Positions 35,969 through 47,840 of a stretch of DNA of 64,000 bases are shown piece after piece. Source of the DNA: Flavihumibacter fluvii. GTDB taxonomy: Bacteria; Bacteroidota; Bacteroidia; Chitinophagales; Chitinophagaceae. The position numbers and the translations under genes are program-made. The notes under the pieces are model-generated. The model was given only the letters and a program-made list of their open reading frames with translations. It ran no database searches and was not told the DNA's origin. The number at the start of each line of letters is the position of its first letter. The stretch's first letter is position 1. The stretch spans positions 830,001 to 894,000 of the forward strand of contig NZ_CP092333.1 of NCBI RefSeq assembly GCF_018595675.2, read 5' to 3'.

Positions 35969-36685
35969 TTACCTGGAAGCCATGTATTTCCAGTCGTCTG
36001 TGCTCTTCATCGATTCAATTGCTTCAAAATACTGGTGGGTAGCAATGAATTTGTGTACGTGTTGCCTGCTTTCTGCGGGAAGGAATTTCTGCAGCATCCA
36101 GAAGTTTTTACTGCCCGATTTTTTCATGGCTGCATAGATGGGACCAGGACCGCAATTGTAGGCCGCCAGGACAAGCAGCCAATCCTTGAATTCAGTATGG
36201 AGGTCACGTAAATAGATAGCGGCAGCTTTGGTGCTTTTCCGGACACTCTTCCTTTCATCAACCTTAGGGGTTATTTTTAGTCCGAGAATTTTAGCAGTAG
36301 CCGGCATCAATTGCCATGTACCTACGGCACCAACCCTGGATACGGCAGTGGGGTTTAATTCTGATTCAACAACAGCCAGGTATTTTAGCTCGACCGGTAG
36401 TTTATATTTATTGAAGACGGCATCCATCAATTCAAAAATAGACGCGCTTTTTTCCCTGATAACATCAAGGTTATCCGTATTGGTTGTGATATATTTCTTT
36501 ATAAATTTTGCCGAAACTGCATTCATTCTTGGGTTCCTTTCGAAAGCATAGTCTGCAGAAGAGATATGGATCTCTTTGTGGGCAACTTTTACAAAAGCCG
36601 GTACGCATGGCGTTGCGGCAAATGATGAAAGAACTACGAGGATGGTGCTGGCCATCAGGATACGAAGCAACTGTGATCTCAACAT
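35969..36685 (-). CDS. Lytic transglycosylase (SLT domain), secreted
   Basis: 238 residues from ATG 36685; a TTG eight codons upstream is less likely. Signal peptide to about 24. The SLT goose-lysozyme-like domain has the catalytic Glu in LAVVESELNPTAVS (about 115-128), then GAVGTWQLMPATAKILGL and WLLVLAAYNCGPGPI (about 185-199), all standard for lytic transglycosylases that cut peptidoglycan to 1,6-anhydro-muramyl products. It is close to MltD/Slt types but lacks LysM domains. It ends two bases from the convergent small membrane gene. Confidence 0.9.
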   Translation of the reverse strand: MLRSQLLRILMASTILVVLSSFAATPCVPAFVKVAHKEIHISSADYAFERNPRMNAVSAKFIKKYITTNTDNLDVIREKSASIFELMDAVFNKYKLPVELKYLAVVESELNPTAVSRVGAVGTWQLMPATAKILGLKITPKVDERKSVRKSTKAAAIYLRDLHTEFKDWLLVLAAYNCGPGPIYAAMKKSGSKNFWMLQKFLPAESRQHVHKFIATHQYFEAIESMKSTDDWKYMASR

Positions 36686-36930
36686 TGTTTTCTTTTTCAG
36701 ATAAGACAATGCCGACCCAGGAGGGATTGGACTACATCAGTTAAATACTGGCATAGAATATTGGGATGTTAAAGGCAGCTAAGAACGGGGGGTACGGTTA
36801 TTTAGGCTTTTCATTTTATCCGCCTTGCTGCAAGGACGGGTTGATCACAGGAATAACATAAAGATAGTACCCGGTGGGTTGGAATGCAAGGTTGATGTAC
36901 TTGGGAAATCTACGATTAGCCGTAAAATAG

Positions 36931-38172
36931 TTACCTGACCTGGCCTTTTCCGCGTAAAATCCATTTTTCTGTGACCAGTTTTTCGAGAGCAAAGGGGCCT
37001 CGGGCATGTAATTTTTGGGTCGAAATGCCAATTTCTGCACCTAATCCAAACACTTCGCCATCTGTGAAGCGGGTGGATGCATTGGAGTAGACCACGGCGG
37101 CATCTACCTGTCTGATAAAGGCCTCGCAGGTTTTTTGGTTTTCGGAAATGATCGATTCAGAATGTTTGGTGGAGTATAGGGCAATATGGTGTAGCGCAGC
37201 TGACAAATCATCAACGACTTTTATGGCACATTTCAAACTCAGGAATTCGCGGCCGAAGTCTTCTTCTTTTGCTATGTGTAAAAAAGGATAGCCTTTCAAT
37301 AAGCCATGGGCTATTTTGTCGGCAAATATTTCCACGCCATCTTTTTCGAATTCTTTCTTCAGGGTGGAAAGGAAAGCAGGTGCGACCGCTTTGTCAACCA
37401 ATATGGCATCAACAGCGTTACAAACGGATGGCCTGGATACTTTTGCATTCACTACAATGGCCAGGGCTTTTTTAAGGTCCGCTTCAGCCTCTACATAAAT
37501 ATGGCAAACCCCGGCGCCCGTTTCAATCACCGGCACCTGGCTGTGGTTTCGGACGTATTTGATCAGGCCATCAGACCCCCTGGGAATCAACACATCAATA
37601 AACTTTGTAGCTGTCATCATATCGTCAACGACTTCGCGGTTTGCGGGCAACAGGCAAATTAAATCAGGATTCAATCCTTCGGAGGACAATACTTTCTTTA
37701 TGATCGAAACGGCCACGCTATTCGTGTGGCTGGCATCGGCACTTCCTTTCAGCACACAGGCATTGCGGCTTCGAAGACTCAACGCGGCTATATCGAAAGT
37801 TACATTTGGCCTTGACTCGTAAATGGCGCCTACAACACCCAATGGTACTGATATTTTCTGCAGTAAAAGGCCATTGTCGAGCGTTCTCTTTTCCAGGATC
37901 TGTCCGGTAGGATCAGGGAGCTTTGCCACTTTTTTTATACTGGCGGCAATATTGGCGATCCGTTGCGCATTCAATAACAAGCGATCATTTTTAGGATTAT
38001 CTGCCGGCTGTTTAGCGAGGTCTTTTGCATTTGCTTTCAGCAATATATGGGTGTTCTCCATTAGAGCATCAGCGAGCGCCCGCAGCACCTGTTGTACTTT
38101 AATATTTGGTACTGCCTGCAGTCCGGCAGAAGCAGCGTGTGTTCTTTGTATCTGTGAAGCAACGGTTTTCAT
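36931..38172 (-). CDS. proA: Glutamate-5-semialdehyde dehydrogenase (gamma-glutamyl phosphate reductase)
   Basis: 413 residues, close to the usual 417. It converts gamma-glutamyl phosphate to glutamate semialdehyde with NADPH, the second step of proline synthesis. VPLGVVGAIYESRPNVTFDIAALSLRSRNACVLKGS (about 105-140), FIDVLIPRGSDGLIKYV and the catalytic-Cys motif RPSVCNAVDAILV are diagnostic, with EVFGLGAEIGISTQKLHARGP near the end. It follows proB by nine bases in the same direction, forming a proBA operon. EC 1.2.1.41. Confidence 0.95.
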   Translation of the reverse strand: MKTVASQIQRTHAASAGLQAVPNIKVQQVLRALADALMENTHILLKANAKDLAKQPADNPKNDRLLLNAQRIANIAASIKKVAKLPDPTGQILEKRTLDNGLLLQKISVPLGVVGAIYESRPNVTFDIAALSLRSRNACVLKGSADASHTNSVAVSIIKKVLSSEGLNPDLICLLPANREVVDDMMTATKFIDVLIPRGSDGLIKYVRNHSQVPVIETGAGVCHIYVEAEADLKKALAIVVNAKVSRPSVCNAVDAILVDKAVAPAFLSTLKKEFEKDGVEIFADKIAHGLLKGYPFLHIAKEEDFGREFLSLKCAIKVVDDLSAALHHIALYSTKHSESIISENQKTCEAFIRQVDAAVVYSNASTRFTDGEVFGLGAEIGISTQKLHARGPFALEKLVTEKWILRGKGQVR

Positions 38173-38181
38173 GTGTTTTGT

Positions 38182-39216
38182 TTAAAATAAGACAATATCA
38201 TCAGCATGAGCTGCGATCACGCTTTTTGCATTGAGTTGCTGCATGATCTGTGCGGCATCCAACCTGGTTTTTGCAACACCCAGGATTTCACCATCTTCAT
38301 CCATAAGTTGTATCACCTCACCGGATACAAACTGGCCATCTGCACTTTTAATGCCAATGGTCAGCAGGCTTTTCCTGCCCGCCAGGGCTTTGGCCGCACC
38401 TTTGTCCACATGGATCGTTCCGAGCGTTACCGAGCCACTAGCGAGCCATTTCTGGCGGGCACGCAGGTTAGATTTCCTGGGTTCAAACCAGGATCCATTT
38501 TTTCCTTTTAACGCATCACTTAAGGGTTGGGTTCCTTTGAGCCCGCATATGATCACGGTGATGCCCAGGGATATGGCCAGCCTTGTAAATGTCAGCTTCG
38601 AGATCATGCCACCCAGGCCCAATCCGCTTTTTTCTGTCTTTACAAATTGCAGTACAGCCGCATCCACTTTTTCTATATGGCGGATAACCTTTTTTTGGTC
38701 ATCCAGTAATCCGCCGGCCGAAGTACAAAGAATTAGGGTGGATGCATCAAATCCAATGGCAATCAATGTAGCGAGTTCATCATTATCAGAGAACTTTATT
38801 TCCACGTTACTGACCAGGTCATTTTCATTTACAACGGGTAAAATGTTATTCTCCCAAAAAGTGGCGAAAGTTTGTTTGAGTTGCAGGAATTGTTTACGGT
38901 TCGAAAAATGCACCCTTTCGCACAAAGCCTGGGCAACGGTGATGCCGTGCTGCTGAAGGTGTTTGTGGTAAAGCTGGATCAGGATCGGGTTGCCGACGGC
39001 AGCTGCCGCCTTTCTTTCAGATAAACTGCCTTTGTATTCACGAATGAATTTTTTACCGCTGCCTACGGCGCCACTAGACACCAGAACAATATCATATTGC
39101 TGGTATAAACGGGCAATTTCAGCAGCCACTTTTTTTACAATGGAATTATCGATATTTCCCTCTTCATCGGTAATGACAGCGGTTCCTAATTTGATCACTA
39201 TAACTTCCCTGGACAT
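38182..39216 (-). CDS. proB: Glutamate 5-kinase
   Basis: 344 residues. It phosphorylates glutamate for proline synthesis (EC 2.7.2.11). The amino-acid-kinase domain has VIKLGTAVIT (about 6-15), VLVSSGAVGSG (about 44-54), PVVNENDLVS (about 126-135) and GGMISKLTFTRLAISLGI. The C-terminal 90 residues form a PUA domain (SVTLGTIHVDKGAAKALAGRKSLL...). The GTKxxA region is slightly different from textbook forms. First gene of the proBA operon; its promoter is in the 146 bases shared with the divergent RiPP precursor. Confidence 0.94.
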   Translation of the reverse strand: MSREVIVIKLGTAVITDEEGNIDNSIVKKVAAEIARLYQQYDIVLVSSGAVGSGKKFIREYKGSLSERKAAAAVGNPILIQLYHKHLQQHGITVAQALCERVHFSNRKQFLQLKQTFATFWENNILPVVNENDLVSNVEIKFSDNDELATLIAIGFDASTLILCTSAGGLLDDQKKVIRHIEKVDAAVLQFVKTEKSGLGLGGMISKLTFTRLAISLGITVIICGLKGTQPLSDALKGKNGSWFEPRKSNLRARQKWLASGSVTLGTIHVDKGAAKALAGRKSLLTIGIKSADGQFVSGEVIQLMDEDGEILGVAKTRLDAAQIMQQLNAKSVIAAHADDIVLF

Positions 39217-39362
39217 GTATGAATAACTTTATTATTGCGGGGCTAAAAATAGGAAGATCGGAAACAAAATTCCCGTAAAATCCGGTTTTGGTGCCAACGA
39301 TTACCGATTATTCCCTGTCATGCTTGTATCAAATCAATGCCGGATACCAAAAAGTCAAGAAC

Positions 39363-39530
39363 ATGAAACTGCCAAAAACCTTACTCAGTGCTATTCTGAC
39401 TGGAATTAGCGTGCAAACTGCCGTATCCTGTAGCAAAGCCAAGGAAACGCCAGGTGCGAAAGCAAAAACGGAGAGCAAGCAAAAAACCGACCAGGTCACT
39501 GATTCCTGTCCGGCTTGTGGTATGGGTTAG
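39363..39530 (+). CDS. Chryseobasin-type RiPP precursor peptide (MNIO substrate)
   Basis: 55 residues from ATG 39363, inside a longer frame from 39288. The N-terminal part is a hydrophobic signal-like leader (LLSAILTGISVQTAVSC) with a lipobox-like AVSC. A charged linker (KAKETPGAKAKTESKQ) follows, and the peptide ends in CPACGMG. That CPACGMG end directly upstream of a DUF692/MNIO gene is, from memory, the hallmark of ChrA-like (chryseobasin-related) peptides, whose two core cysteines are oxidised by the MNIO enzyme ChrH. Its stop lies inside the MNIO frame, so the two are coupled. Easily missed because of its size. Confidence 0.8.
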   Translation: MKLPKTLLSAILTGISVQTAVSCSKAKETPGAKAKTESKQKTDQVTDSCPACGMG

Positions 39531-40690
39531 ATCAATTACATCATCATCACTTTCTATTGCAGAAAATTTATTCTTCCCTTGCCAGCAACCTGGATATCCA
39601 GTTATTATCCGCGGCCTATCCTTTGCTTGCCGGGGGTAAGGTGGACGCTATCGAATGGTCATTTGATACATTGTATAAAGTTGACCATATACCGATGTGG
39701 TTTGAGGATTTACTTGCAGCATACAGTGCGCAAAACCGGTTGATCGGGCACGGGGTTTTCTTTTCCCTTTTTTCAGGAAGATGGTCGGATGCCCAGCAGA
39801 ATTGGTTAGCAGCACTCCGGCAAACCAGCCAGCGGTACCGTTTCGACCATATTACTGAGCATTTTGGGTTTATAACCGGAAAGGATTTTCACCAGGGTGC
39901 ACCAATGAGTATTCCCTATACACCTGCCACCCTGGCAATTGGCCAGGACAGACTCAAAAGGATACAGGATGCCTGTTCTTGTCCGGTTGGCCTTGAAAAC
40001 CTGGCTTTTTCGTATTCGCTGGATGAGGTGAAAGAGCATGGTGAATTTCTGCAACGGTTAATAGAGCCGGTGAATGGATTCATTATACTGGATCTCCATA
40101 ACCTGTATTGCCAGATCAATAATTTTGACATTGGATTTGAAGAGATCATTTCCTTATATCCTTTGGATAAGGTAAGGGAGATCCATATTTCAGGTGGTAG
40201 TTGGGATGAGGTATCGGAGCCATTCCCAAAAAATGTGCGAAGAGATACCCATGATAGTGCAGTGCCAGAACCAGTATTCGACCTGTTAAAGATGACCATT
40301 GAAAAGTGCCCGGCCTTAAAGTATGTGGTGCTGGAACAATTAGGATCAGCATTAAGTACTCCTGAAAGCCAGGCTGTTTTCCAGCAGGATTTCCTCATCC
40401 TTGAAGAGATCGTACAAGAAAAGAATAAGGGTCGCTGGGATTTTTTCAATGATGCATTTCTGCCATCCCCTTTGGTAATTCCAGATGATATTATTGAAGA
40501 TGAAGCCTTGTACCAACAGCAAAAGCAGTTAGCCGAAATATTGGAGCATTGTACAACTGCGGCCGAAGCCCAGCAACAAATGCGGCAAACTACACTGGCC
40601 AACTCAGCCTGGGATATTGAGCACTGGCAACCGTATATGCTGGAAACAGCCATTCGGATAGCCCAAAAATGGAAAGACGGATTTGAATAA
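39515..40690 (+). CDS. DUF692 family multinuclear non-haem iron oxidase (MNIO), ChrH-like RiPP enzyme
   Basis: 391 residues from TTG 39515; there is no in-frame ATG near, because TGA at 39500 closes the frame just upstream. TTG 39557 (before QKIYSSLASN) would fit other family members better and leave a 26-base gap. The TIM-barrel DUF692 pattern is clear: DAIEWSFDTLYK, RLIGHGVFFSLFSG, DHITEHFGF, CPVGLENLAFSYSLDEV, ILDLHNLYCQ, REIHISGGSW, RRDTHDSAVP and VVLEQLG. The repeated His, Asp, Glu and Asn residues are the likely iron ligands. It should modify the cysteines of the adjacent precursor. Nothing else of the pathway is next to it. Confidence 0.87.
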   Translation: MWYGLDQLHHHHFLLQKIYSSLASNLDIQLLSAAYPLLAGGKVDAIEWSFDTLYKVDHIPMWFEDLLAAYSAQNRLIGHGVFFSLFSGRWSDAQQNWLAALRQTSQRYRFDHITEHFGFITGKDFHQGAPMSIPYTPATLAIGQDRLKRIQDACSCPVGLENLAFSYSLDEVKEHGEFLQRLIEPVNGFIILDLHNLYCQINNFDIGFEEIISLYPLDKVREIHISGGSWDEVSEPFPKNVRRDTHDSAVPEPVFDLLKMTIEKCPALKYVVLEQLGSALSTPESQAVFQQDFLILEEIVQEKNKGRWDFFNDAFLPSPLVIPDDIIEDEALYQQQKQLAEILEHCTTAAEAQQQMRQTTLANSAWDIEHWQPYMLETAIRIAQKWKDGFE

Positions 40691-40742
40691 GGTTAATTTA
40701 TCCAATCCGGCTTTCTAGCAATAAATTGATGTACCAGATAGA

Positions 40743-40946
40743 TTATCCAGGCAATCCGGCAGATTGTCTTTTACTGGCCCTGATTACAAAATGAATCAAA
40801 ACCAATCCGGCACCAAAACAATAGAAGTTGAAAATTTGTCCAGCTGTTGGTCTTCCAAATGTCCAGGTCATGGCAATAATGGTTGTGCCCCAGATCAGGA
40901 AGGCGTTCTTAATAGCTGATAACAGCAAGTTGCGGAAAGTTTGCAT
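40743..40946 (-). CDS. Small membrane protein of unknown function
   Basis: 67 residues from ATG 40946; a longer frame from 40967 adds seven more. Two hydrophobic helices are visible (about 12-28, NAFLIWGTTIIAMTW, and 36-52, FNFYCFGAGLVLIHFVI), with basic residues at the end (RASKRQS). It converges with the MNIO gene, 52 bases away, and is upstream of the helicase in the same direction as that gene. A link to the RiPP is not shown. Moderately likely to be real. Confidence 0.5.
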   Translation of the reverse strand: MQTFRNLLLSAIKNAFLIWGTTIIAMTWTFGRPTAGQIFNFYCFGAGLVLIHFVIRASKRQSAGLPG

Positions 40947-41034
40947 AGGTATACATTTAGGGTACATTATTAACCTATAATCGCCCTGAAAATTGTGTAC
41001 CGTTTTTTAGCAGGATTTAAAAAATTCATGTAAC

Positions 41035-42948
41035 TCATTCATTTACAAACTCCCATGCGCTTAGATAGGCCGCGTTGTTTTGGGCATATTCGACGAATCG
41101 ACCATAAAATTCGTTTTTTGAAAGTGTAGCACTATCACCAATGACTACCAGTTTTTTGCGAGCCCGGGTCATGGCCACATTCATTCTTCGGGTATCTGAC
41201 AAAAAGCCGATTTCCCCGTTTGAATTGGAGCGTGTAAGGCTGATATAAATAATATCCCTTTCCTGTCCCTGGAAGCTATCGATCGTGTTAACGGTAATTT
41301 TGTGGGCGATGTCCTGCCATTCAGGGAAGGCTAATAATTGTTCTTTCAGTAATTCGATCTGGAGCTTATAGGGCGAAATGATGCCAATGGAGGGGAAGTC
41401 TTCAATGCAAAGGTTTTCGCGTAACGCACTAACGAGGATAGATAAGTGCCTAAACAGGAAGTCTGCTTCTTCGGGGTTGGTAGTACTGGTACCTTCCAGT
41501 TTTTCTTCAAAGCCACAACCAGCTGTATCAATAAAGGCCAGGGGGAAATCACCAGGGTATAAAAGGTGATGAGCAACCGATGCATCAGCCTTTAATTTAT
41601 TGTAATAAAAGACCTTTGAGGAATACCCCATAATCAGTTCATTCATCCGGTATTGGTTTTCCAGCAGGGAAACTGCTCCAGGGTATTTTTCCACACATTT
41701 TTCGAGCAGTGTCTTGCCCAGTCCGGCCCGGGCAGCATCCATTGATTTTATGGTAGGGGAAAGCTGGTTGTGGTCACCGGCAAGTATAAGTTTACGGCCT
41801 TTGATGATGGGGATCCAACAGGCGGGTTCCAGTGATTGCCCGGCTTCATCGATGAAGACGGTATGGTACTGCAAGGACTTTACGGTATAATGATTGGCAC
41901 CGACCAGTGTCGCAGTGATGACCTGGGCCTTGCCAATCAGATCATCCATTATATATTGTTCAATGCTGATCACTTCTTTCATGATCTTCCGTGCTTCATC
42001 AAAAAGAGCTTTGCGTTGTTCCCTTTCAGCTTTGCCAAAATTGCGTTTGTATTTCTGCGCTAAGTTGCGGTACTCATTTGCCTGTTTTTTCAGGTTCCTG
42101 ATATCTTTAATACGAGGGTGGGCAGCCATTTTACAATCCAGTGTTAACCGCATGAGCCCTTCTGAAACCCTTGCCGGGTTCCCAACCCGCAGCACCTGAA
42201 TGCCTTCATCGGACAATTTTTCGCTTAGCAGGTCCACTGCAGTATTGCTGGGGGCAACTACCAGTATTTGCCGGGGGTCTTGCTGCAACAGCACTTTAAT
42301 GGCCTGTACCAGGGTGGTGGTTTTACCGGTTCCGGGCGGACCATGCACAATAGCCAATTCGTTTGCAGCAATTATTTTACGGATGGCAGCCTGTTGGCTG
42401 GGGTTTAATTGTGGCAGGTCAGGCAGCCATGCAGATTCCTCAAAAGTTGGGTATGCCTCACCGGTTAATAATTTTACCAGGATTCCATTCCCTTTTTTTT
42501 CTGCCATAACAGCGGCCTGTTTTAAAGCGCTGTTCATTTCTTCATAGCTATTGTCATCAAACAGCAGGTCAATACCCAGTTTTCCATCGGACGCCCAATC
42601 GGGTAGTTCATCCAGTTGGAGGCTTATTTTGATCGTATTTCCGCTGATGTAAGTGATCACACCTTCTATACGGTCTGTTTTGGCATTGTGGTTGGAGAAG
42701 ATGGCAACGGGCATGCCAAACCTAAACTGGTGGACCAGTTCCAGGTAGCTTGTCCTTTCTATTTCGACTGTGAGGTAATCGCCCTGGCCTATTTCGGTTC
42801 CTTTGATGGCGATCGGATACCAGCATATGCCGTTTTGCCTCCTTTCGGAAGTAGAAGATTTTTCTGTTAAGGTTGCATAAGATAACCTGTCTGCCTGCCT
42901 TTCAATTCTTAACAAATCAGCTAACCTTTTAAAATACTCCATGGGCAA
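41035..42948 (-). CDS. Superfamily 1 helicase, UPF1/IGHMBP2-like
   Basis: 637 residues; MPMEYF gives two starts (42948 or 42942). Motifs in order: Q-like NPSQQAAIRKII, Walker A HGPPGTGKTTTLVQ (about 205-218), motif II FIDEAGQSLEP (about 367-377), GDHNQLSPT, ENQYRMN, NTIDSFQGQERDIIYISLTRSN (about 565-586) and RMNVAMTRARKKLVVIGD. The order matches DNA2/UPF1-type 5'-3' helicases. The first 170 residues form a beta-barrel region (1B-like). It probably unwinds nucleic acid in repair or RNA metabolism. Confidence 0.92.
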   Translation of the reverse strand: MPMEYFKRLADLLRIERQADRLSYATLTEKSSTSERRQNGICWYPIAIKGTEIGQGDYLTVEIERTSYLELVHQFRFGMPVAIFSNHNAKTDRIEGVITYISGNTIKISLQLDELPDWASDGKLGIDLLFDDNSYEEMNSALKQAAVMAEKKGNGILVKLLTGEAYPTFEESAWLPDLPQLNPSQQAAIRKIIAANELAIVHGPPGTGKTTTLVQAIKVLLQQDPRQILVVAPSNTAVDLLSEKLSDEGIQVLRVGNPARVSEGLMRLTLDCKMAAHPRIKDIRNLKKQANEYRNLAQKYKRNFGKAEREQRKALFDEARKIMKEVISIEQYIMDDLIGKAQVITATLVGANHYTVKSLQYHTVFIDEAGQSLEPACWIPIIKGRKLILAGDHNQLSPTIKSMDAARAGLGKTLLEKCVEKYPGAVSLLENQYRMNELIMGYSSKVFYYNKLKADASVAHHLLYPGDFPLAFIDTAGCGFEEKLEGTSTTNPEEADFLFRHLSILVSALRENLCIEDFPSIGIISPYKLQIELLKEQLLAFPEWQDIAHKITVNTIDSFQGQERDIIYISLTRSNSNGEIGFLSDTRRMNVAMTRARKKLVVIGDSATLSKNEFYGRFVEYAQNNAAYLSAWEFVNE

Positions 42949-42972
42949 AGCTACAGTGGGTTTTCGTCAGAA

Positions 42973-43599
42973 TTATTTCTTTTGCAGGGTAATCCACTGG
43001 GTGCCTGCATAGGTTATATTGACTGAAGTGCCATTGATGACCTGGTTTTCATTAAATGAAAAAGGGGACTTTAAGGTTAATATATTTCCGGACCAGGATA
43101 ATTTTGCACCCAGGGTTACATTTGGGATGGTTATTCCGCTGCCATTTGGCGCACCGATAGTGGCATTCTGGAAGGTGAGTGAATCCGTTCCCGACTCGGT
43201 ATACGGTGTGCTATCACTAAATGGCGGAACCTGGGCTGTAAAAGAGGAGTCCACGGATTCCACCAAAACGCCAGCTACATAAAAATACCCCTTGATGGTG
43301 GTGTCTACTGTGTAAGAAACATTATTAGTGTTGAATTTTCCGCCGTCAATTAAAACGGTGCCCTGGTTATTCTTTGAGGTATAATCGGTCACTACGACTG
43401 CTTTATAATCAACGCCGCTCTCACTATACAGGAATGTGCTGGTTGCCTGTAACCGGATATTGACCAGGTCATAATTTCCATTCAGCGTATTGGTATTACC
43501 GCCAGTAGATGGCTCATCCTCAAGTTCCAGTTGTTTCTGGCAGGAAAATAGCACCACTGAAAGAATGAGGGAGCTATGCAGCAATTGCTTAAATTTCAT
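42973..43599 (-). CDS. Hypothetical lipoprotein
   Basis: 208 residues from ATG 43599; a TTG nine codons upstream is possible. Lipobox VLFSC near residue 20 (LILSVVLFSCQKQ). The rest is a beta-rich domain of about 180 residues (NGNYDLVNIRLQATSTFLYSESG..., VSYTVDTTIKGYFYVAG...), ending in IQWITLQKK-like strands. There is a low-complexity TGGNTNT linker after the lipobox. Upstream of the ABC ATPase on the opposite strand. No family known. Confidence 0.75.
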   Translation of the reverse strand: MKFKQLLHSSLILSVVLFSCQKQLELEDEPSTGGNTNTLNGNYDLVNIRLQATSTFLYSESGVDYKAVVVTDYTSKNNQGTVLIDGGKFNTNNVSYTVDTTIKGYFYVAGVLVESVDSSFTAQVPPFSDSTPYTESGTDSLTFQNATIGAPNGSGITIPNVTLGAKLSWSGNILTLKSPFSFNENQVINGTSVNITYAGTQWITLQKK

Positions 43600-43691
43600 A
43601 AATAGGGCTGTAATTGTATAGCGCAAAGTTAATTGTTAATTGGACAATCCAGGTGGTTGCAAAATCGCTATAAAATCATATTATCGCAAAT

Positions 43692-44675
43692 ATGGAATTA
43701 TTACGCGTTTCCCGTATCAGGAAGCAGGGCAGGGACGGGTTTGTATTAGCGGAGGCCAGTTTTATCCAACAGAAGGGGCAACGGATCGCCATTGCGGGAG
43801 AAACCGGATCGGGGAAAACAACCCTGTTGAAAATTATTGCCGGATTGATTCAGCCCGATAGCGGCGAAGTGTTGTTTGAGGGGGAAAAAGTCATTGGTCC
43901 GATGGATAAACTAATTCCAGGACACCCGAGAATTGCCTATCTATCGCAACATTTTGAATTGAGGAATAATTACCGGGTGGAAGAGATTTTATCCTATGCC
44001 AATAAGATAACTGAGGAATCAGCAACAAAACTATATTCAGTCTGCAGGATCAGCCATTTATTGACCCGCAAAACAGACCAGTTATCGGGTGGTGAAAAGC
44101 AACGGATAGCCATTGCCCGCCTGCTGATCGGTTCACCCGTATTATTGGTACTGGATGAGCCATTTTCAAATCTCGACCTCATCCATAAACAATTGCTGAA
44201 ATCTGTCCTTCGGGAAATCGGTAATGAGCTGGATATTACCTGTATGCTAAGTTCGCATGATCCGCAGGATACATTATCCTGGGCAGATGAAATTATGGTC
44301 ATGCATTCGGGACGTATTATCCAGGCAGGCAGTCCGGAAGAAGTGTACAGGAAACCTGTAAATGAATATGTTGGAGGAATTTTTGGCAACTATACACTCA
44401 TCGGCCAGCAACTGGCAGCGGCATATCCCAGTTATTTTCCTGATCACCCAGCAGGCACATCCATTTTTTTACGTCCGGAACAATTGCGTATTGTGGCACC
44501 AGAAGCGGAAGGATTCAGCGCAACCGTGCAGGGGATTTATTTCCTGGGCAGCAGCTACGAGATTGAATTAAGCCTTTTTGACCAGGTAGTGCTGGCCAGG
44601 TCGGCGACAGGTAAGTTCAATGTTGGGGAAAAAGTGCAGGTGAGCCTTGTTCCTGGTGAAAGCTGGTATGTTTAA
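43692..44675 (+). CDS. ABC transporter ATP-binding protein (PotA/ModC-like with TOBE-type C-terminus)
   Basis: 327 residues. Walker A GETGSGKTT (about 36-44), Q-loop SQHFELR, signature LSGGEKQRIAIARLL (about 132-146), Walker B VLLVLDEPFSNLD and the His switch LSSHDPQDTL are all present. Residues 240-327 resemble a TOBE-like regulatory extension (TSIFLRPEQLRIV, FLGSSYEIEL, VGEKVQVSLVPGESW). This layout belongs to importers of ions, polyamines or small molecules, but no permease or binding protein is adjacent. It overlaps the convergent MFS gene by four bases. Confidence 0.87.
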   Translation: MELLRVSRIRKQGRDGFVLAEASFIQQKGQRIAIAGETGSGKTTLLKIIAGLIQPDSGEVLFEGEKVIGPMDKLIPGHPRIAYLSQHFELRNNYRVEEILSYANKITEESATKLYSVCRISHLLTRKTDQLSGGEKQRIAIARLLIGSPVLLVLDEPFSNLDLIHKQLLKSVLREIGNELDITCMLSSHDPQDTLSWADEIMVMHSGRIIQAGSPEEVYRKPVNEYVGGIFGNYTLIGQQLAAAYPSYFPDHPAGTSIFLRPEQLRIVAPEAEGFSATVQGIYFLGSSYEIELSLFDQVVLARSATGKFNVGEKVQVSLVPGESWYV

Positions 44676-45839: not shown

Positions 45840-47840
45840 TTACCTGATCAGCGTGGTTTTGCCTTTTTTGGAAAACTGTTTTTTTGAATCGCGATCAGTA
45901 AAGGTTAATGTCCAGATATATACACCGCTTGCCTGCAATTCTGAATTGAATCTTCCATCCCAACCTTTTTTCCAGTTGGTAGTACTAAAAACAACCTGTC
46001 CCCACCGGTTATATACGGTAAAGGTAAGTTGTTCAGCTTTCACGGCATTCAGGGGGTATAACATATCATTCCTGCCATCGGAATTTGGGGTGAATGCATT
46101 CGGTACATCGATCAGGCAGCTGACATAAACCTTTGTGGTTTTTTCTATGGAACTTGAACAGCCGATAGCATTGGTAACAGTATACTGTATGCGATATTCC
46201 CTTGTGGCAGCTGTTCGGTTAAATATGTGGTTGGGTGAAACCTCATTGCTGGTATTTCCATCCCCGAAATTCCAGTGATGCGAAACAATATTACCCACAG
46301 CAGTACTGGTCAGTTGAATCGGTTCGAGAGGACAATTGTCTTCGGCAACTGAAAAGTCAGCTTGTATGAAATTGTCGAGAACAACTGTTTGTTTGGCTGT
46401 ATCAGCACAGAAACCATTACTTACGATTAGTTGTACCTGTTTTTCGGTAAAACGCGAGTACCTGGCCTCCGGATTTTGTTGTGTACTGGCCATATTATCA
46501 TCCAGGTCCCATATGAAGCTGCTCACTTCATTATTACCAGGATGGCTATATGCCACCAGGTCTTGCACGCAGCCATAGGTTATATTGTAGGAGAAATCAG
46601 CATTTACCGTATCCTTGACCGAAAAAGGAAGGCTTGATCCGGGGGGTGTTTCTTCATTGCATTCATCCAGGAGGGTGTTTCCATCTGAGCCCCGTTTCAA
46701 TTGGATCCTGAAATCACCTTTCTGGCTGATGGCCTTGTCAAGAGTAATGGTAATTTCCTTTGTTCTTTCATCCGCGCAATTACCCGAAGCTGTAACAATA
46801 CCTACCGGGTAGGGGCCGATGATGGAAAAATCTGTACCATCTTCTGCAATGCTGCTGCATAGGATATCTTTAGGGAAAATCAGTTTTAGTTCCCGGGGTG
46901 CACAACTAACTGGTACCAGGCTATCCATTGGAGTTGGCACAATGGGCTGTATGGTAAATGCCATTGTTTCAGTTGTTGGTAAAGCAGTTCCACAGATATC
47001 GAGTATAGTATTTTCATCGGTACCTTCTTTCACCTTCAAAACATAGTCGCCGGGAGGCAATTGCTGGCCTATCTTGATTTCAATGGAGTCGGTATCAAAC
47101 CTGGATGAGCAACCGATACCTGTTGCGCTGCTAAATGTGACGGGATTCCCATCAATATAAAAATCTGTTCCGTCGGGAGCAATACTATTGCAAAGCATTT
47201 TTTTGTTCAGCTTTACCCGTATGATATCTCCGCCGCAATTAGATCCGGCACTCATCAATGCAGGTGTCCTGGTATCTGTAATCACAGCTGACCCACCATT
47301 AAACTCCAGCGTATAACCTTCCATGGAATTGGTGAACGGGGCGAAATGGCTGACCAGTAAAAGGTAATTATGGTTAACCTTTAATACCGGTTGTTTGCTG
47401 TTGAGGGGTTTGCCATAACCTGCGCATACAAATGTTTCGCTGGCGGAGGAAGATGTACCCGTTAACCCGGTTTCGCCGCTCCAGTTACAGGCGATAGACA
47501 GGTTGCCATCTGTAAACACTTCGTTCGGGTTGTGACCTGTAATATCATATAGTTCCCAGTCATAATCATCATCCAGGTTGTTGGGTGTGATCATGAATCC
47601 CAATGTGCCTTCCTTGAAGCAGGTGAATTTGTACCAGAATGGATTGGTATCCGTTACGTTATCTGATTTGCATTTTGACGGCAAAATCTTGTTACCGCAG
47701 AGGGGGACTGTCTGCTGCTTAAAAATACTGGTACCGCAAACAGGGAAGGCGGTTGTCGGGTTCTGACCTCGTGTGGTACAGGTCTGCGATAATCCAACCA
47801 TTGAATAAAAAAGGCAAAAAACAAGTACAGCTATCCTCAT
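45840..47840 (-). CDS. Large secreted protein with PKD domains and a gliding-motility (CHU_C/T9SS type B) C-terminal domain
   Basis: 666 residues with signal peptide (AVLVFCLFYSMVGLSQ, cleavage near 19). Two long repeat-like segments (about 200-300 and 305-410: CNSIAPDGTDFYIDG..., CSSIAEDGTDFSIIG...) resemble each other, followed by PKD-like domains (about 415-580: VQDLVAYSHPG...SFIWDLDD, HHWNFGDGNTSNEVSPNHIF). The C-terminal 90 residues, DVPNAFTPNSDGRNDMLYP...FTVYNRWGQVVFSTTNWKKGWDGRFNSELQASGVYIWTL, are a CHU_C type B sorting domain. It should be exported by the type IX system to the surface. Confidence 0.92.
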   Translation of the reverse strand: MRIAVLVFCLFYSMVGLSQTCTTRGQNPTTAFPVCGTSIFKQQTVPLCGNKILPSKCKSDNVTDTNPFWYKFTCFKEGTLGFMITPNNLDDDYDWELYDITGHNPNEVFTDGNLSIACNWSGETGLTGTSSSASETFVCAGYGKPLNSKQPVLKVNHNYLLLVSHFAPFTNSMEGYTLEFNGGSAVITDTRTPALMSAGSNCGGDIIRVKLNKKMLCNSIAPDGTDFYIDGNPVTFSSATGIGCSSRFDTDSIEIKIGQQLPPGDYVLKVKEGTDENTILDICGTALPTTETMAFTIQPIVPTPMDSLVPVSCAPRELKLIFPKDILCSSIAEDGTDFSIIGPYPVGIVTASGNCADERTKEITITLDKAISQKGDFRIQLKRGSDGNTLLDECNEETPPGSSLPFSVKDTVNADFSYNITYGCVQDLVAYSHPGNNEVSSFIWDLDDNMASTQQNPEARYSRFTEKQVQLIVSNGFCADTAKQTVVLDNFIQADFSVAEDNCPLEPIQLTSTAVGNIVSHHWNFGDGNTSNEVSPNHIFNRTAATREYRIQYTVTNAIGCSSSIEKTTKVYVSCLIDVPNAFTPNSDGRNDMLYPLNAVKAEQLTFTVYNRWGQVVFSTTNWKKGWDGRFNSELQASGVYIWTLTFTDRDSKKQFSKKGKTTLIR

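Follow-up and report, generated by a model that had tools for sequence, protein, structure and literature searches.

A single-copy precursor and MNIO pair of probable DybA/DybH type in Flavihumibacter fluvii, and the conserved signal peptide of its branch

The precursor gene and its MNIO enzyme

The window analysed here is a stretch of 64,000 nucleotides of the F. fluvii genome (assembly GCF_018595675.2, contig NZ_CP092333.1, positions 830,001 to 894,000), and all window positions are counted from its first letter. It contains a short precursor gene followed by a gene for an MNIO (DUF692) enzyme, with the following features.

39363..39530, + strand: precursor peptide gene, 55 aa, DybA-like and ChrA-related (NF050125 match; MNIO adjoining in relatives)
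39363..39428, + strand: lipoprotein-type signal peptide, residues 1-22, MK[LIV][SP][KR]xxLxA[ILVM]xx[GA] (pattern scoring)
39429..39431, + strand: lipobox Cys23, expected N-terminal lipidated residue of the mature 33-residue product (motif, alignment)
39507..39527, + strand: core motif C49-P-A-C-G-M-G55, expected MNIO substrate (motif; chemistry from PMC12636315)
39515..39556, + strand: upstream extension of the MNIO frame, probably untranslated (start comparison in relatives)
39557..40690, + strand: MNIO (DUF692) maturase of DybH/ChrH type, 377 aa, most likely start TTG 39557 (NF050165, PF05114, alignments)
39749..40336, + strand: span of the iron-ligand residues H65, H102, E147, D179, N182, H210, D230, H232 and E260 (numbered from TTG 39557)

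The 55-residue peptide opens with MKLPKTLLSAILTG, has a basic and hydrophobic N-terminus, carries AVSC at residues 20-23 and closes with SCPACGMG. The signal-like leader and terminal CPACGMG that the initial annotation had described are therefore present, and the peptide scored 76 bits against the NCBIfam family NF050125, "chryseobasin-related MNIO class RiPP peptide" (cut-off 40). Its match to NF050124, the family of the true chryseobasin precursor, was weak (18.6 bits, cut-off 50). A DNA pattern for C-P-x-C-G-x-G followed by a TRR codon matched a single site in the 5.0-Mb genome, and a reversed control pattern matched none. The NF050125 score and the single site, set against the empty control, show that the precursor is not a chance open reading frame. 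The signal peptidase II (SPII) signal and lipobox of the window precursor were judged by motif and alignment only. The lipobox Cys was invariant in 14/14 aligned precursors (L044, a duplicate of L041, and the signal-less L046 were omitted), and a Cys was found within residues 15-33 in 101 of 102 distinct precursors, the exception being L046. The reading of AVSC as a lipid anchor holds, and is already in print for DybA, which is reported to be triacylated (PMC12636315).

The enzyme matched PF05114 strongly (108.4 bits, cut-off 25), which confirms its DUF692 identity. Against NF050165 (MNIO_ChrH) it scored 391.7 bits with positions 11-361 of 363 aligned, so the ChrH-type C-terminal part is present. 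The 600-bit equivalog cut-off was missed, which places the window MNIO in the wider ChrH-like subfamily. The iron ligands of TglH are H71, H107, E151, D184, N187, H216, D229, H231 and E258 (PMC10880893). Window residues H65, H102, E147, D179, N182, H210, D230, H232 and E260 correspond to these in order (9/9); seven of them (E147, D179, N182, H210, D230, H232 and E260) were aligned directly to TglH (8hci), and H65 and H102, which fall outside that alignment, were placed by way of 3bww and the surrounding motif. All nine ligand columns were invariant in family alignments of 16 and of 30 sequences. The window MNIO is thus predicted to be able to form an iron cluster, and the ligands are silent on which reaction follows. 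The genome is a single contig of 5,001,887 bases in which one MNIO was found, and a search of it for other MNIO substrates, as CPxCGxG-stop sites, returned none beyond this one.

Conservation of the pair, the enzyme start and the neighbourhood

ChrH-like MNIOs were detected at E ≤ 1e-40 in 16 genomes of a 248-genome sample of the order, the window's own included. A CPxCGxG-stop frame lay just upstream of the MNIO in 16/16; in one (G062) it ends in CPPCGKG, has no recognisable signal peptide and lies at a contig end. NF050125 matched 19 of the 248 genomes, 12 of them over the cut-off, and 15 of the 16 MNIO genomes were among those matched. The four matches in genomes with no MNIO at 1e-40 (G177, G189, G021 and G080) were weak and partial. 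In a second, named collection, some of whose genomes are common to the order sample, a contig search with the single window protein gave no relative, and an alignment query gave 210, of which the best 80 were kept. They include Chitinophaga, Dyadobacter, Hymenobacter, Pontibacter, Fluviicola and Saprospiraceae as well as others. A precursor adjoined the MNIO in 79 of these best 80; C-P-x-C-G-x-G was found upstream in 77/80, two more had CLSCGMG or CQGCGMG, and on the short contig of L107 a precursor was looked for and none was found. Two or more precursors were present in 10/80. A CPACGMG-type peptide is therefore kept upstream of the enzyme in the relatives' loci, as the pairing proposed initially would have it.

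The core itself varies in L101, L117, L109, L132, L050 and L099 (CLSCGMG, CQGCGMG, CITCGRG, CIACGRG, CAACGMG and CPACGRG), and L046 has a CPPCGKG core on a frame with no recognisable signal peptide at a contig end. At least two extra Cys residues lie in the linker between lipobox and core in L045, L047, L048, L052, L053, L054, L070 and L093 (for example NCPSDCDSEH and SDCDESC); a second modification or a metal site is possible there. When NF050124 was searched class-wide (395 genomes, E ≤ 0.01), 20 genomes matched, all below the cut-off, and the top two of them were inspected. In G612 (L161:8689-10921) and G554 (L162:8773-11187), four tandem precursors lie upstream of one ChrH-like MNIO each. 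These arrays resemble the window pair in that the MNIO (42% and 45% identical to the window's) lies below short precursors ending in C-x-x-C-G-x-G, but they have four precursors with distinct cores (CPPCGMG, CPGCGMG, CEACGRG and CGKCGKG) and, by eye, signal peptidase I (SPI)-type signals with no lipobox.

Comparison of the relatives also bears on the start of the enzyme, which the initial annotation had placed at 39515, inside the precursor codons. The open MNIO frame extends back to about 39503. Its first TTG, at 39515, is formed where the core's Ala and Cys codons meet (gcTTGt), and five other loci, L043, L054, L104, L105 and L133, have a TTG in the equivalent position (-16 from the end of the precursor stop); each of the five has another candidate start. 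Of the 15 other MNIO loci in the order sample, 12 have a candidate start 4-16 nt past the precursor stop. Among the 79 named relatives with a precursor, searched from 5 to 25 codons before aligned residue 27, a post-stop ATG was found in 45, only a post-stop GTG or TTG in 28, and only an overlapping start in six (five ATG, one GTG). Thus 73/79 have a start codon past the precursor stop, and the overlap claimed for the window is probably false. The N-terminus of the family aligns with TTG 39557, which leaves a gap of 26 nt to the precursor stop, and non-ATG starts are common in the MNIO family. Since the conserved N-terminus aligns at this codon and most relatives have a start codon past the precursor stop, the window MNIO is most likely a 377-residue protein encoded by 39557-40690. 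We also considered overlapping genes as a coupling device and rejected the idea as a probable artefact of the ORF caller, although six of the 79 relatives have only an overlapping start.

Around the pair, proA-proB (36931-39216, - strand) adjoin the precursor in divergent orientation and appear ordinary. Near its other end lie an IGHMBP2-family helicase gene (41035-42948, - strand), an ABC transporter ATPase gene (43692-44675, + strand) and a gene for a PKD-domain protein with a type IX secretion sorting domain (45840-47840, - strand). A sigma-70/ECF-type factor, whose family occurs in 11/81 loci, is encoded ~9 kb downstream, too far off to argue from. A promoter and terminator scan gave nothing above shuffles, and Rfam gave no match in 36000-44000. 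Across 81 loci, no family of frames of 90 aa or more was general besides the MNIO. The next commonest lay near 18/81 loci and another near 9/81, families which we take, by eye, to be SusC-like and SusD-like, and grouped members of both were absent from the window's 20-kb stretch. The minimal two-gene layout proposed for the window, precursor plus MNIO, was borne out. An ordinary small lipoprotein standing by chance beside an unrelated DUF692 gene would fit the lack of conserved neighbours beyond the pair, but not the adjacency of precursor and MNIO in 79/80 (best 80 of 210 relatives) and 16/16 loci, the core pN/pS of 0.05 or the NF050125 score over the cut-off. We regard such a coincidence as extremely improbable.

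The Chitinophagaceae-like host suggested initially was correct, the genome belonging to the same family as G034, G217 and G243. Within the window's genus, the MNIO was found in 2/15 genomes, the window's own included. The congener's MNIO shares 50-52% identity with the window's, less than the 61% of many copies from other genera. Sequence similar to the window's helicase and ABC-ATPase genes lies beside the congener's pair (L137), in another order, and L089 and L090 contain members of the helicase group as well. Recent horizontal transfer was considered and rejected, because gene loss, local rearrangement and rapid divergence explain the data no less well, and helicase/ABC-ATPase-like sequence lies beside the congener's pair. 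A quick MNIO tree, which has long branches, the congener's included, placed the window only as far as a group of 52 rows. In Hymenobacter volaticus, an MNIO 59% identical to the window's is encoded on a 330-kb plasmid record (NZ_CP095062.1:270231-271340), so the unit may be mobile in Hymenobacter.

Class assignment and proposed maturation

DybA/DybH of Dyadobacter crusticola resembles the window pair in that a precursor with a lipobox Cys and a C-terminal CPACGMG lies directly upstream of a single ChrH-like MNIO, with no obvious partner protein. According to the preprint that describes DybA/DybH (PMC12636315, November 2025), clusters of this branch consist minimally of a precursor and an MNIO with no partner protein; the product has a mass shift of -4 Da and contains a macrocycle and a hydantoin; DybA was modified and triacylated in E. 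coli, as judged by MS, NMR and lipid analysis; and homologues from Chitinophaga and Hymenobacter also give -4 Da. The two pairs differ in sequence, the window MNIO being ~60% identical to Dyadobacter homologues, which stand in for DybH, and we found nothing mechanistic that sets them apart. The window pair is very probably a DybA/DybH-type DAG-RiPP unit whose product would be lipidated and 4 Da lighter than the unmodified peptide. A shift of -4 Da rather than +10 Da is expected because the pair belongs to the DybA/DybH branch and scores below the Chryseobacterium-type cut-offs. For this branch, chemistry, lipidation and two-gene layout have all been published already. The describers of the peptide family call its function unknown (PMC12636315). 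In the literature searched (titles and abstract openings), we found no reported function of the branch product and no experiment on the window pair.

Chryseobasin (ChrA/ChrH/ChrI) of Chryseobacterium shares the CPACGMG core and a ChrH-type MNIO with the window pair. In contrast, ChrA is described with an SPI signal and no lipobox Cys, and it belongs to a larger conserved operon with ChrI (DUF1772) whose product is S-methylated (PMC10214503). A ChrI-type gene, part of the chryseobasin operon, was not found in the window's genome, which gave no PF08592 match at E ≤ 0.001. PF08592 (Anthrone_oxy) is presumably the former DUF1772 of ChrI. The initial annotation had put the pair in the same class as ChrA/ChrH. 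It does remain a chryseobasin-related MNIO RiPP, but of the DybA/DybH branch, the NF050124 and NF050165 cut-offs both being missed. If it were instead a true chryseobasin, its MNIO would also S-methylate the product and give +10 Da, as ChrH does. The core motif is identical to that of ChrA, ChrA and ChrH in E. coli are reported to give +10 Da even without ChrI, and ArlAH, with the motif CPACGMMM, gives a mixture of both products (PMC12636315). On the other hand, both Chryseobacterium-type family cut-offs were missed (18.6/50 and 391.7/600 bits), the precursor has the lipobox Cys, like the unmethylated branch, and the tested homologues from Dyadobacter, Chitinophaga and Hymenobacter are reported to give -4 Da (PMC12636315), which makes a +10 Da product quite improbable. 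TglH and MbnB have the iron-ligand set in common with the window MNIO, but the papers describe both as dependent on TglI or MbnC, active on other substrates and lacking the C-terminal helical domain of ChrH (PMC12636315, PMC10214503).

For the DybA/DybH-type pair of the window, we draw on the studied relative to infer both reaction and lipidation, as well as the sequence of events and where the product ends up. The cytoplasmic MNIO, using its iron cluster and O2, would oxidise the C-terminal CPACGMG by four electrons. A macrocycle containing a hydantoin would thereby link Cys49 to what had been Cys52, and a thiohemiaminal thiol would stay free (-4 Da); neither a partner protein nor S-methylation would be involved. 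The signal peptide would then direct the product of this step to the inner membrane. There, Lgt would add diacylglycerol to Cys23, LspA would cleave before Cys23 and Lnt would N-acylate it. The product would be a 33-residue lipopeptide with an N-terminal membrane anchor and a rigid ring at its free C-terminus. The initial annotation had remarked that no protease or exporter was visible. None lies in the two-gene unit, but this leaves no gap, since lgt, lspA and lnt lie elsewhere in the genome, each over its family cut-off (for lnt, one match over and three below).

Our guess is that the ring is a membrane-tethered binder displayed on the cell envelope. A more specific alternative is that the ring binds copper or iron and that the unit is a metal-stress lipoprotein like the lipidated bufferins or oxazolins. 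Other MNIO-made lipoproteins have been tied to copper (PMC12636315), the product would keep a free thiol, and models of tungstate, molybdate and ferric transporters are among the sub-cut-off matches of the neighbouring ABC ATPase. However, 3 kb and a gene in the opposite orientation separate this ATPase gene from the pair, none of the ten neighbours scanned scored over the cut-off of a named metal-resistance family, and the 81 loci have no general neighbour family (frames of at least 90 aa) besides the MNIO. The published product also lacks the thioamide or thiooxazole groups of the bufferin and oxazolin families. Nothing pointed to a copper or iron response, judged via neighbour genes only, and we consider a metal-stress role unlikely.

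Conservation of the signal peptide

The signal peptide of this branch is conserved in register. In the 101 distinct precursors that have a Cys within residues 15-33, and with Met as position 1, the conserved residues were K2 in 92, [LIV]3 in 101, [SP]4 in 100, [KR]5 in 84, L8 in 97, A10 in 93, [ILVM]11 in 101 and [GA]14 in 99. At least seven of the eight positions were matched by 98/101 precursors compared to 0/78 control frames, other lipoprotein-like frames of these loci selected with a simple pattern, of which the best (3/78) scored 5. The count is descriptive, as the eight positions were chosen on the same precursors. The window precursor matches 8/8. Two further comparisons are less circular. 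Across 55 pairs of similar precursors matched in length, which are linked by shared ancestry, the pN/pS ratio was lowest in the core (0.05), intermediate in the signal (0.13) and highest in the linker (0.27). Mean identity over 1500 random pairs was 51% for the signal, 22.5% for the linker and 92% for the core, compared to a shuffled-signal baseline of 28%. These sequence comparisons indicate that purifying selection in this branch acts more strongly on the signal than on the linker, at odds with the "relaxed selection" on the signal peptide described in PMC12636315. The observation is new here, though it may be visible in the sequence logo of Fig. 1c of that preprint. In other lipoprotein families of these loci, identity of the signal and of the mature part was 80% and 86% (three members), 40% and 37% (nine members) and 32% and 75% (three members). 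That one of them keeps its signal well (80%) speaks against a special role of the precursor signal.

A tentative explanation, which we think somewhat doubtful, is that the signal is a dual-purpose leader whose register, MK[LI][SP]KxxLxA[IV]xxG, fixed across Bacteroidota despite drift of the linker behind it, is read by something besides the lipoprotein pathway. It might be read by the C-terminal part of the MNIO, or it might pace export, so that modification beats secretion. Of the eight positions, the eight precursors from two genomes of another family match 6, 5, 6, 3, 6, 6, 6 and 4. These precursors, which look like SPI substrates, keep part of the register (S4 in 8/8, A10 in 7/8, L8 in 6/8), as would be expected of an element that serves the enzyme and not lipidation; the partial register could also come from common descent.

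The residues just past the lipobox were compared with the surface lipoprotein export signal of Capnocytophaga, which is K-(D/E)2 or Q-A-(D/E)2 just past the lipidated Cys and is said to need a net negative charge (PMC5080379). The window precursor reads C-SKAKE at this point, short of the published minimum. K at +3 was found in 51/99 precursors and 19/78 controls, an acidic residue at +4 or +5 in 74/99 and 29/78, and x-K-(D/E)2 in 17/99 and 1/78, counts that kinship makes non-independent; the 99 omit the extra precursors of L109 and L132, and in the two-Cys rows (L042, L055 and L109) the first Cys was taken. A net negative charge over +2 to +6 was rarer in precursors (19%) than in controls (31%). 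Surface display via the Bacteroidetes lipoprotein export signal, suggested by the CxKD or CxKDD of many relatives, was therefore rejected, the charge being rarer than in controls and the window's SKAKE falling below the minimum.

The window pair adds to a peptide family whose describers call its biological role unknown (PMC12636315). It is a clean, single-copy and minimal case, the one-contig genome having yielded a single enzyme and a single substrate, and deletion of the pair should therefore be free of paralogue confusion. The conserved signal provides a handle on how an enzyme that acts on the C-terminus outpaces export. If the dual-purpose leader is true, the published conclusion that the C-terminal seven residues are all that the enzyme reads would need qualifying.
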